Assembly: GCF_014696385.1 (NCBI RefSeq)
Contig: NZ_JACJQB010000023.1
Coordinates: 1 to 56,886 of the forward strand
Reading direction: 5' to 3'
Length of the DNA stretch: 56,886 nucleotides
Source of the DNA: Pseudanabaena mucicola FACHB-723
GTDB lineage: Bacteria; Cyanobacteriota; Cyanobacteriia; Pseudanabaenales; Pseudanabaenaceae
The translations under genes were made by a program, and so were the position numbers. The notes beneath the pieces were generated by a model that made no database searches, was not told the DNA's origin, and saw only the letters and a list, made by a program, of their open reading frames with translations. Positions 35,725-39,117 of the stretch are shown here, in pieces (position 1 is the first letter of the stretch; every line of letters starts with the position of its first letter).

Positions 35725-35813
35725 CGATTGTTGGTTTAAACCTTTGCTGCAAATGACTTAATCTTGTTTATTCCTAAGCAAAAATAGGCGAGAATCTTAG
35801 ACTACTAAATTTC

Positions 35814-35868
35814 ACAAAACCAAAATAGAGTTGCGGCGCTTCGTGCCGCAACTCTATTTTGGTTTTGT
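35814..35868. repeat. REP-like palindrome, 26-bp stem
   Basis: Arms 35814-35839 and 35843-35868 pair with a single G-T around TTC. The left arm begins ACAAAACCAAAATAGAGTTG and ends CGGCGC. This is the most complete member of the family. It lies in the 334-base gene-free stretch 35725-36058. Confidence 0.92.
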
Positions 35869-35979
35869 TCTAACGTCAATGGCTACAACCATAAACAGAC
35901 AGCGACAGATTTTCAAAAATCGTAAAGTAACTTGAACTATCGGCAAATTAGGCAATTGCAAAGCGTAAGATCTTAGTAT

Positions 35980-36024
35980 ATGAGATTCTTTTAGATTACC
36001 GACGATAATCTAAAAGAATCTCAT
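35980..36024. promoter_or_regulatory. 19-bp perfect inverted repeat upstream of SSADH
   Basis: Arm 35980-35998 (ATGAGATTCTTTTAGATTA) pairs exactly with 36006-36024 around CCGACGA. It ends 34 bases before the SSADH start codon and no T-run follows, so it is not an ordinary terminator. Its place fits an operator or a leader hairpin of the SSADH/2-OGDC unit. Unlike the REP-like palindromes it is AT-rich and shares no core with them. Confidence 0.6.
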
Positions 36025-36058
36025 CAATGCACAACTTCTCAGCTTTGGAGACAAGATC

Positions 36059-37423
36059 ATGGCGATTGCCTCAATCAATCCTGTCACGGGAGAATTGTTA
36101 AAAACTTTCACGCCGCTATCCGATGCGGAAATAGAGCAGAAGATTGCCTTAGCTGATCATACCTTTGCCACCTACAAACATAGTAAATTTGCCGATCGCA
36201 GTCGGTGGATGCACCAAGCCGCCGATATCCTCGAGGCAAAAAAAACAGAGTTGGCAATTATCATAACCCTTGAGATGGGAAAGACCCTCAAAAGTGCGAT
36301 CGCAGAAATCGAGAAATGCGCCCATCTCTGTCGTTTCTATGCCGAACATGCGCCACAGTTTTTAGCTGACACCCCTGCCACCACCGATGCTAGTTGTACA
36401 ATCATCCGCTATCAACCCCTAGGCGCAATTCTGGCGGTGATGCCGTGGAACTTTCCCTTTTGGCAAGTGTTTCGCTTTGCCGTACCCGCGCTGATGGCAG
36501 GCAATGTGGGACTGCTCAAACATGCATCCAATGTGCCGCAATGTGCGCTGGCAATCGCCGAAGTCTTCCATGCCGCAGGCATCCCTGAAGGTGCATTTCA
36601 AACCCTCCTCATCGGTGCGGATCGGGTAGCAAATTTGGTTGCCGATGCCCGCATCAAGGCCGCCACATTAACAGGTAGTGAACCTGCGGGGCAAAGTCTC
36701 GCGGCAATGGCGGGGCATCATCTCAAAAAAGTAGTTTTGGAACTGGGGGGCAGTGATCCATTTATTGTCCTCCATAGTGCCGATCTGGACTTAGCCGTAA
36801 GTACCGCCGTCACCGCAAGGATAATGAACAACGGACAAACCTGCATTGCCGCCAAACGATTTATTCTCGAAGATGCGATCGCAGATTTATTTATTGCCAA
36901 GTTTGTCGAGAAATTTAAAGCTCTCAAAGTGGGCGATCCGATGCAGCCTGAAACCGATGTGGGTCCCCTCGCCACGCCACAGATTTTGCATAAACTTGAT
37001 GCTCAGGTTAAGGCTAGCGTTGATGCAGGGGCAAAAATTCTCATTGGTGGGTATCGCCTTAAAGACAAAGGAAATTTTTATGCGCCCACCATTTTAAGTG
37101 ACATTCCCCTTGGCGCACCTCCCTATCAAGAAGAGTTTTTTGGTCCCGTCGCCTCGATATTCCGTGTCAAAAACATACAGGAGGCAATTGCCCTTGCCAA
37201 CAGCACTAATTTTGGTTTGGGTGCAAGCATCTGGACTCAAGATCTAGAGGAAATCGAATTGGCGATCGAACAAATCGAATCGGGGGCAGTCTTTGTCAAT
37301 GGCATGGTCAAATCCGATCCGCGAGTTCCCTTTGGCGGTATAAAGCGATCAGGCTTCGGTCGTGAACTAGGCTGCGAAGGAATTCGCGAATTTGTAAATA
37401 TCAAAACCATTTGGATCGCCTAG
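36059..37423 (+). CDS. Succinate-semialdehyde dehydrogenase
   Basis: Aldehyde dehydrogenase, 454 aa, that oxidises succinic semialdehyde to succinate with NAD(P)+. The catalytic Cys is C262 (NNGQTCIAAKRF) and the general base Glu is E228 (VVLELGGSDP). MPWNFPFWQ and LTGSEPAG (cofactor site) are present. The length matches the short SSADH type of cyanobacteria. The next gene, 53 bases on, is a ThDP decarboxylase. In Synechococcus sp. PCC 7002 that neighbour pair converts 2-oxoglutarate to succinate and closes the cycle without 2-oxoglutarate dehydrogenase. A long inverted repeat lies upstream. Confidence 0.88.
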   Translation: MAIASINPVTGELLKTFTPLSDAEIEQKIALADHTFATYKHSKFADRSRWMHQAADILEAKKTELAIIITLEMGKTLKSAIAEIEKCAHLCRFYAEHAPQFLADTPATTDASCTIIRYQPLGAILAVMPWNFPFWQVFRFAVPALMAGNVGLLKHASNVPQCALAIAEVFHAAGIPEGAFQTLLIGADRVANLVADARIKAATLTGSEPAGQSLAAMAGHHLKKVVLELGGSDPFIVLHSADLDLAVSTAVTARIMNNGQTCIAAKRFILEDAIADLFIAKFVEKFKALKVGDPMQPETDVGPLATPQILHKLDAQVKASVDAGAKILIGGYRLKDKGNFYAPTILSDIPLGAPPYQEEFFGPVASIFRVKNIQEAIALANSTNFGLGASIWTQDLEEIELAIEQIESGAVFVNGMVKSDPRVPFGGIKRSGFGRELGCEGIREFVNIKTIWIA

Positions 37424-37476: not shown

Positions 37477-39117
37477 ATGAACACCGCAGAACTATTGGTC
37501 AAATGTCTAGAAAGAGAAGGAGTGGAATATATTTTCGGACTACCGGGAGAAGAAAATATGGCAGTTCTCAATGCCCTTGAGCATTCATCAATTCGATTCA
37601 TTACCACACGCCATGAGCAGGGAGCAGCTTTTATGGCGGATGTCTATGGGCGACTGACGGGGAAGCCGGGGGTATGCCTATCCACACTGGGGCCGGGAGC
37701 AACTAATTTGATGACGGGGGTTGCCGATGCGAATCTAGATTGTGCGCCATTGATTGCAATTACGGGACAAGTGGGAACTGATCGGATGCATATTAATTCC
37801 CATCAATATCTCGATTTAGTGGCGATGTTCGAGCCTGTGACCAAATGGAACGCTCAAATTGTGCGTCCAAGTATTACTCCCGAAATTGTCCGCAAAGCCT
37901 TTAAAATTGCCAAGTCCGAAAAGCCGGGGGCAGTGCATATTGACCTACCTGAAAACATTGCGGCGATGGAAGTGGCAGCACAACCGCTATCGATCAGAAG
38001 CGATCGCAATTCTATGTATGCCTCCTACCGCAGTCTATCAGAAGCAGCATTGTTGATTGCTCAGGCAAAAAACCCCTTAATTCTGGTCGGCAATGGTGCA
38101 ATTCGTTCCCAAGCTAGCCAAGCTCTCACCGATTTCGCCACCCGTCTCAACATTCCCGTGGCGAATACCTTTATGGGTAAAGGGGTGATTCCCTATCGTC
38201 ATCCCTTAGCGCTGTGGACTTTGGGATTACAGCAACGAGATGTAATTAATTGCGCCTTTGACGAAACTGACTTAGTGATTGCCGTTGGTTATGACTTGAT
38301 CGAATATTCACCGAAAAAGTGGAATCCCCAAGGCACAATTCCGATTATTCATGTGGGAGAATTAACCGCCGAGGTGGATAGTAGCTATATGCCCCAAGTG
38401 GAAATTGTCGGGGATATTTCTGATTCCCTTGTGGAAATTATGCACCGTTGCGATCGCACAGGCATGACTGAACCCCATGCAATTGCGCTGCGTCCACAAA
38501 TTCTAGAAACCTATGAGCATTATGCCCATGACGAGGGTTTCCCCATTAAGCCGCAAAAAATTATCTATGACCTACGGCAAGTGATGGGAGCCGATGATAT
38601 TGTCATCTCCGATGTGGGAGCGCACAAAATGTGGATGGCTCGCCATTATCATTGCGATCGCCCCAATACTTGCATCATTTCCAATGGTTTCGCGGCCATG
38701 GGGATTGCGATTCCAGGGGCAATTGCCGCGAAGCTAGTCCATTGCGATCGCAAAGTGGTAGCGGTGACAGGTGATGGTGGTTTCATGATGAACATGCAGG
38801 AGCTAGAAACCGCCACCCGCATCGGTACACCCTTTGTGACCATTATTTTTAATGATGGCGGCTATGGGTTGATCGAATGGAAACAACAAATCCATTATGG
38901 TAAAACCGCATTTATCAAATTTGGCAATCCTGATTTTGTGAAACTAGCCGAAAGTATGGGGTTAAAGGGCTATCGGGTTAATTCTGCGATCGATCTTGTG
39001 CCAACCCTCAAGGAAGCTCTAGAACAGGATGTGCCTGCTGTGATTGATTGCCCCGTGGACTACCGTGAGAATATGCTCTTTTCTCGCAAAGTGGGCGAGT
39101 TGTCCTGCCCTATTTAG
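37477..39117 (+). CDS. ThDP-dependent 2-oxoglutarate decarboxylase (acetolactate-synthase-like)
   Basis: A 546-aa ThDP enzyme of the acetolactate synthase superfamily. The catalytic Glu is E47 (TTRHEQGAAFMADVYG). The ThDP and metal motif runs from GDGGFMMN (432-439) to NDGGYG (459-464). On sequence alone it would be called IlvB. Its position directly after SSADH and its length match the enzyme shown in Synechococcus PCC 7002 to decarboxylate 2-oxoglutarate to succinic semialdehyde. No ilvN-type small subunit is adjacent. The frame is open from 37411 inside SSADH, but the ATG at 37477 is the family start. Assignment as 2-OGDC rests on context. Confidence 0.8.
   Translation: MNTAELLVKCLEREGVEYIFGLPGEENMAVLNALEHSSIRFITTRHEQGAAFMADVYGRLTGKPGVCLSTLGPGATNLMTGVADANLDCAPLIAITGQVGTDRMHINSHQYLDLVAMFEPVTKWNAQIVRPSITPEIVRKAFKIAKSEKPGAVHIDLPENIAAMEVAAQPLSIRSDRNSMYASYRSLSEAALLIAQAKNPLILVGNGAIRSQASQALTDFATRLNIPVANTFMGKGVIPYRHPLALWTLGLQQRDVINCAFDETDLVIAVGYDLIEYSPKKWNPQGTIPIIHVGELTAEVDSSYMPQVEIVGDISDSLVEIMHRCDRTGMTEPHAIALRPQILETYEHYAHDEGFPIKPQKIIYDLRQVMGADDIVISDVGAHKMWMARHYHCDRPNTCIISNGFAAMGIAIPGAIAAKLVHCDRKVVAVTGDGGFMMNMQELETATRIGTPFVTIIFNDGGYGLIEWKQQIHYGKTAFIKFGNPDFVKLAESMGLKGYRVNSAIDLVPTLKEALEQDVPAVIDCPVDYRENMLFSRKVGELSCPI

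Follow-up and report, generated by a model that had tools for sequence, protein, structure and literature searches.

A perfect inverted repeat in the 5' leader of a Pseudanabaena SSADH-like gene, probably one member of a genome-wide palindrome population

Introduction

Stem-loops at the 5' terminus of an mRNA that stabilise the message are known, the type being the ompA leader of E. coli, and stems in a 5' leader can slow the decay of an mRNA from its 5' end.

Perfect hairpins can also arise from replication itself. Template switching during replication is described as both creating and mending hairpins in the available part of PMC8794818, and hairpins of this origin appear likewise in the available parts of PMC8604942 and PMC7202029. 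For the genes considered here, the closest described arrangement is that of Synechococcus PCC 7002, where ogdA and ssaD form one operon according to the accessible part of PMC5160925. A search of open-licence papers returned none that joins cyanobacteria, 2-oxoglutarate decarboxylase, SSADH and a transcription start.

Here we analyse the leader of an SSADH-like gene of Pseudanabaena mucicola FACHB-723, within a stretch of 56,886 nucleotides (NZ_JACJQB010000023.1, positions 1 to 56,886) that we call the window. A preliminary description had pointed to an inverted repeat in this leader and had considered a dedicated operator or an RNA switch. Our analysis supports neither. We favour, with somewhat better than even confidence, a leader stem-loop that comes from a genome-wide population of palindromes and whose influence on mRNA decay, if there is any, would be generic.

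Results

The arms of the repeat (Table 1) are fully complementary over 19 bp when read in the sequence. The preliminary description was also right about the loop CCGACGA, about the 34 bases (36025-36058) that separate the repeat from the ATG at 36059, and about the absence of a T-run 3' of the repeat. The predicted RNA fold of 35970-36061 has an energy of -27.4 kcal/mol, against -13.05 (sd 2.97) for shuffled sequences (z -4.83); as none of 200 shuffles folds as well, the repeat is more than a product of chance. Such a stable stem might belong to a terminator or attenuator, a reading we consider highly improbable given the missing T-run and a terminator scan that lists no site at the repeat, its three sites all lying at the neighbouring palindrome. 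The repeat had been called unlike the GC-tipped palindromes nearby, which is true of its tip (AT-richer) but not of its build (identical). A search of its own genome (E <= 10) for a second copy returned the repeat itself on both strands and otherwise 14-base matches.

Table 1. Positions of the repeat and of the features around it in the window.
Feature	Position	Strand	Basis
Neighbouring GC-tipped palindrome, arms 24 bp, same divergent spacer	35814..35868	.	sequence scans
Promoter-like stretch, genus-conserved	35914..35975	+	ungapped stacking of leaders
TTGAAC, core of conserved TTGAAY box	35932..35937	+	leader comparison
TAAGAT, presumed -10 hexamer	35966..35971	+	conservation
Inverted repeat, left arm, ATGAGATTCTTTTAGATTA	35980..35998	+	sequence, fold
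Loop CCGACGA	35999..36005	+	sequence
Inverted repeat, right arm, TAATCTAAAAGAATCTCAT	36006..36024	+	sequence, fold
GGAG, presumed ribosome-binding site, 22 bases 3' of stem	36047..36050	+	sequence, fold
SSADH-like aldehyde dehydrogenase	36059..37423	+	NF006915, Pfam Aldedh
TPP enzyme, acetolactate-synthase-like, presumed 2-oxoglutarate decarboxylase	37477..39117	+	PRK08322

Two genes follow. The product of the first scores 674.9 bits with NF006915, below that model's cut-off of 730, and also matches Pfam Aldedh; that of the second, whose start was set at the ATG from which the family match runs, scores 861.3 bits with PRK08322 (cut-off 509). The pair had been described as an SSADH/2-OGDC unit. 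An SSADH-like gene followed by a PRK08322 TPP enzyme is indeed present, and the assignment of the latter as 2-oxoglutarate decarboxylase (OgdA), presumed from the neighbouring gene, is made plausible by the ogdA-ssaD operon of PCC 7002. The closest named relatives of the SSADH protein come from two Pseudanabaena MAGs (87% identity). Of the 25 further genus members searched, 24 carry the SSADH gene (E <= 1e-100), and the exception, G028, is a genome only 82% complete; the gene also occurs in 7 of 12 genomes from other genera of the family.

Comparison of 25 genus leaders, those of 24 relatives and the window, identified a conserved stretch just upstream of the repeat. It extends from 52 bases before a TAAGAT hexamer to 4 bases after it and is free of gaps in 22 of the 25 leaders; L025-L027, where a TTGAAY box is absent, were excluded from the stacking. 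Across the 22 rows, positions 1, 2, 5 and 6 of the hexamer are invariant, and the distance from TTGAAY to TAAGAT is 28 bases in 22 of the 25 leaders, one of which (L020) reads TTAAAT. By its conservation the stretch is probably a promoter with the repeat behind it, and the TTGAAY box is perhaps an activator site. Since the stretch is conserved and free of gaps in so many leaders, the repeat is probably part of the mRNA leader; transcription would be expected to start at about 35976-35979, the hexamer ending at 35971 and the stem beginning at 35980. The promoter motif was absent from all five leaders read from other genera (L028-L032; seven such genomes carry the gene). An NtcA box is not claimed: GTA-N8-TAC is matched at 5 of 6 positions only in the window and G024, and the remaining 23 leaders agree with it at 3 or 4.

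A consensus scan listed a sigma-70-like site within the repeat (35980-36009, 9 of 12) and did not list the conserved TAAGAT. Transcription from this site would start behind or within the right arm, and the site sits in arms that the relatives lack. A perfect dyad near the expected start, with a promoter-like site inside it, is what might be expected of a DNA operator bound by a repressor or activator. However, a search of the 25 other genomes of the genus did not find the repeat (E <= 0.001), whereas the stretch immediately upstream is conserved, and a dedicated operator is rejected for this reason; we judge it very improbable. The TTGAAY box, at its fixed distance, is the likelier site for a regulator.

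The same search, across 38 genomes at E <= 0.001, gave matches touching the repeat, apart from the window, only in kaiA coding DNA of two other genera. The likeness covers the right arm and its neighbours (1501-1528 of L035 and 1501-1529 of L036). Capture of a kaiA fragment of 28-29 bases would account for these matches (G036, 93% over 28 bases; G005, 90% over 29), both of which fall in genes that match Pfam KaiA. We regard such a capture as almost certainly wrong. The two matches concern one gene and so amount to one chance event, and chance is the probable source of the likeness because the kaiA locus of the window's own genome does not match, no match longer than 8 bases being reported there.

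At the place of the repeat the 24 relatives carry different sequences, and the whole interval between the promoter-like stretch and the ribosome-binding site varies greatly among them. The largest unbranched hairpin predicted for the window counts 19 pairs. In 14 of the 24 relatives (L004-L008, L011-L018, L023) the largest one reaches 15-22 pairs, and in the other 10 it has 4-13 pairs: L009 6, L010 4, L019 9, L020 5, L021 9, L022 8, L024 8, L025 13, L026 9 and L027 11, the start of the L027 leader being arbitrary. Stems of at least three different sequences occupy the site, namely that of the window, that of the 13 alignable relatives and that of L012. The hairpin piece of L010 (G012) is missing between flanks that otherwise match, apparently through a clean deletion; L004 and L007, which stand beside L010 on the SSADH tree with 82/82 support, keep the hairpin. 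This tree, built from SSADH DNA, has poor resolution, with 9 of its 23 inner branches starred, and does not settle the place of the window's species. The leaders of L022 and L024 have tandem copies of a TTCTTGCCAAATGG-like unit in place of a single hairpin.

The leader hairpin of the 13 alignable relatives is probably kin to a dispersed palindromic repeat. Two models were built, R1 from 14 hairpins including that of the window and R2 from the 13 relatives without the window. Across 26 genomes of the genus (E <= 1, 150 candidates scored per genome) R1 matches at least 48 places: the 13 leaders, the window, and at least 34 rows at 32 or more other places, the best with 41.1 bits. The seven best of those 32 places (L121-L127) all match R2 with 30-44 bits on the better strand, a match that is not independent as the seven were picked by the kindred model R1; being a palindrome does not by itself bring such scores, as R2 gives the neighbouring palindrome (35809-35871) just 11.9 bits. 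TATAGC stands at the left end of five of the seven, as in most of the 13 relatives, one has TATAGG and one has neither; the tips of the seven resemble TTTGCCTACGGTAAA. Counts of the tip pattern TTDCCKACGGHAA are 79 in G013 and 77 in G014 (controls 3 and 1) but 7 in the genome of the window (control 8), and the window itself has none. When the arms of 12 copies of the repeat were measured in fetched loci, nine had 13-23 pairs and three had 5-6. The TATAGC/TTGCCTACGGCAA repeat is expanded in some Pseudanabaena genomes and is at background level in the genome of the window.

A test of homology between the stem of the window and those of the 13 relatives gave no support for it. The 33.9 bits that R1 gives the window are circular, and R2, built without it, did not match the window under default filters (E <= 10); with filters off, over 301 bases, it gave the repeat 10.4 bits, below the 11.9 of the neighbouring palindrome. 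Alignment A3, which places the window beside the relatives, is therefore no proof of kinship, R1 scoring being circular and R2 negative. What likeness there is between window and relatives is confined to the tip, TTACC-GAC, and was noticed after the fact.

The large stem of the window ends at 36024 and leaves the presumed ribosome-binding site GGAG outside. In the minimum-energy fold GGAG pairs weakly with CTTC (36035-36038) as a separate hairpin of 4 pairs. This CTTC/GGAG hairpin (36035-36050) is too short to judge. A similar hairpin of 3-5 pairs is predicted in 10 of the 24 relatives (L004-L008, L011-L013, L018, L020), and in five others (L014-L017, L023) the predicted fold has in its stead CTGA/TCAG pairs from the outer part of the large stem. 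A dedicated RNA switch, or a protein-binding RNA hairpin, that answers 2-oxoglutarate or nitrogen status would suit the position in the leader. It would also suit the apical TTACC that the window has in common with the 13 alignable relatives, though those 13 were picked by TTACC, which leaves this selected-for motif as the whole of the shared core. Competing folds near the ribosome-binding site would be the sole hint of switching, a weak one; the competing pairs are few and absent in the window, and the tip resembles that of the dispersed repeat. The whole window has no Rfam match at the gathering score (at E <= 10 there are only matches far below it, mostly to microRNA families), and 10 of the 24 relatives have only 4-13 pairs. 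We therefore think a switch quite improbable.

Whether the relatives' stems behave as RNA or as DNA can be gauged from their imperfect pairs. Alignment A2 comprises the hairpins of the 13 relatives, picked by TTACC near the middle, in 9 distinct rows and 21 positions, or 189 cells, which hold 126 Watson-Crick pairs, 41 G-U pairs, 8 A-C pairs (all in one column), 10 other combinations and 4 gaps. A DNA dyad would be expected to show A-C as often as G-T, and the 8 against 41 count further against an operator. The 19-pair structure has pairing in 97.0% of cells, compared with 94.5% in shuffles (0 of 500 as high) and 24-51% in slid registers. The covariation score is 0.206 against 0.177 in shuffles (8 of 500); double-changed pairs number 2 against 0.9 (45 of 500 reach 2) and further pair types 11 against 10.7 (369 of 500). 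G-U is favoured somewhat in these counts because the register was chosen from sense-strand folds. Imperfect palindromes elsewhere in the window's genome (G000) show no lean towards G-U, with G-U:A-C ratios of 8:10 in tandem, 3:5 in divergent and 8:8 in convergent spacers; in the relative G029 the ratios are 15:7 (a weak lean), 4:4 and 5:4, respectively.

Folding of the two strands varies among the leaders. The sense strand folds better than the antisense strand, by z, in L004 (-3.24 and -0.04, respectively), L007 (-2.99 and 0.46), L011 (-2.58 and -0.21), L012 (-3.64 and -1.32) and L013 (-3.44 and -0.45), and in L014-L017 and L023 sense z is -1.4 to -1.7 against -0.4 to -0.7 for antisense. The antisense strand is the better in L005 (sense -0.91, antisense -1.23), L006 (-2.25, -3.33), L008 (-2.02, -3.36), L018 (-1.71, -2.75), L025 (-1.56, -1.79) and L027 (0.61, -1.97). 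L009, L010, L019-L022, L024 and L026 never fall below -1.1 on either strand. The strands of the window fold about equally well (-5.51 and -5.6) because its repeat is perfect. In the 13 relatives it is largely G-U that preserves the pairing, a hint of RNA rather than of a DNA operator. We take this as moderate evidence that it is in the transcribed RNA that the relatives' hairpin is important, or undergoes mutation; strand-biased mutation, C-to-T on the untranscribed strand alone, could also yield the G-U pairs.

The repeat belongs to a large population. We sampled 456,886 bases of the window's genome, or 11.5% of the assembly (the window and, from each of 20 other contigs, the first 20 kb), counting palindromes with perfect arms of at least 12 bases and a loop of 3-9. 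There are 124 of these, 95 having arms of at least 15 and 45 arms of at least 19; 400,000 bases of G029 hold 129, 99 and 50, respectively. Three first-order Markov controls of the same lengths as the G000 sample, counted by a slightly different rule, had 0, 0 and 2 with arms of at least 12. By crude gene calls (longest ORFs of at least 100 aa), 55 of the 124 lie in tandem spacers, 41 in convergent spacers, 15 in divergent spacers, 6 inside ORFs and 7 at edges. Among spacers of at least 60 bp, a palindrome occurs in 43 of the 128 tandem ones, in 11 of the 61 divergent ones and in 15 of the 28 convergent ones, which gives 54 of 189 for tandem or divergent spacers, wherever in the spacer the palindrome lies. 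A T-rich end accompanies 35 of the 124, and the commonest tips are GC-rich. Perfect arms are present in 107 of the 143 intergenic quasi-palindromes sampled from G000 and in 116 of the 148 from the 400 kb of G029, shares that are raised because the search penalises mismatches.

Long perfect palindromes with varied arms are very dense throughout the window, in sample loci L128-L167 and in G029. Titles and abstract openings among the open-licence papers listed gave no account of this palindrome population. A REP/REPIN element was considered for the repeat and rejected, there being no second copy in the genome and no Y1 transposase: the RAYT (Y1) family PF01797 had 0 matches in G000 (E <= 0.001) and was positive in 5 of 14 control genomes.

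Discussion

We propose that the repeat belongs to a large population of perfect palindromes and stands in the part of the 5' leader that is transcribed ahead of the SSADH/TPP-enzyme unit. With a start directed by the conserved upstream stretch, only a few bases would precede the left arm, and the mRNA would begin with a 19-bp stem-loop. Since this stem contains neither the ribosome-binding site nor a T-run at its end, it should neither directly block translation nor terminate transcription. Any effect it has would most likely be generic, a shielding of the 5' end of the mRNA from decay that does not depend on sequence. Some results sit less well with this view: the sigma-70-like site that the consensus scan places within the repeat, the better antisense folds of six leaders, the small number of double-changed pairs, and the weak pairing of GGAG in its own hairpin. 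The identity of the arms is probably maintained by template switching between them during replication; an arm-equalising process of this kind would explain why perfect arms are common without invoking a regulator.

Selection of the leader stem-loop itself as an mRNA stabiliser, where the structure is needed, the sequence is free and lineages fill the site differently, is an alternative that we hold to be possible but rather doubtful. The evidence for it can be summarised as (i) the stem of the window and those of 15-22 pairs found in 14 of the 24 relatives have at least three sequences and occupy the same interval between promoter-like stretch and ribosome-binding site; (ii) G-U greatly outnumbers A-C in the 13 alignable relatives, compared with no lean elsewhere in G000 and a weak tandem lean in G029. 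Against this, the 10 relatives with 4-13 pairs and the apparently clean deletion in G012 suggest that a long stem is not needed, C-to-T mutation confined to the untranscribed strand could produce the G-U pairs, and a palindrome is in any case present in 54 of the 189 spacers that are tandem or divergent.

A more specific version would have the leader site want a long hairpin of free sequence, with palindromes particular to each lineage, arms renewed together by template switching and selection acting on the RNA stem alone. This we consider unlikely. If true, it would provide a natural test of whether selection can act on the structure of a leader stem alone as the sequence is replaced, the perfect arms being supplied by template switching.

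In this genus even a conspicuous perfect dyad ahead of a metabolic gene gives weak evidence for regulation, because such palindromes are common. The TTGAAY box, at a fixed distance upstream, offers a better lead than the repeat to a regulator of the TCA-cycle bypass.

The locus can be compared with four known systems. As in the stabilising stem-loops of the ompA type, the stem would lie near the expected 5' end and the ribosome-binding site lies outside it, but the arms of the window are not conserved and the stem is apparently dispensable in some relatives. With REP/REPIN elements, as they are presented in the available part of PMC3116915, the genome shares the many short palindromes between genes. 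The dispersed Pseudanabaena repeat, which has ends that are mostly TATAGC and tips such as TTGCCTACGGCAA, resembles the leader hairpins of the 13 relatives, and some of its tips begin with TTACC as that of the window does, whereas the arms of the window do not match it. Hairpins formed by template switching share with this locus both the perfect arms and the occurrence, across related lineages, of arms that differ in sequence yet match each other.
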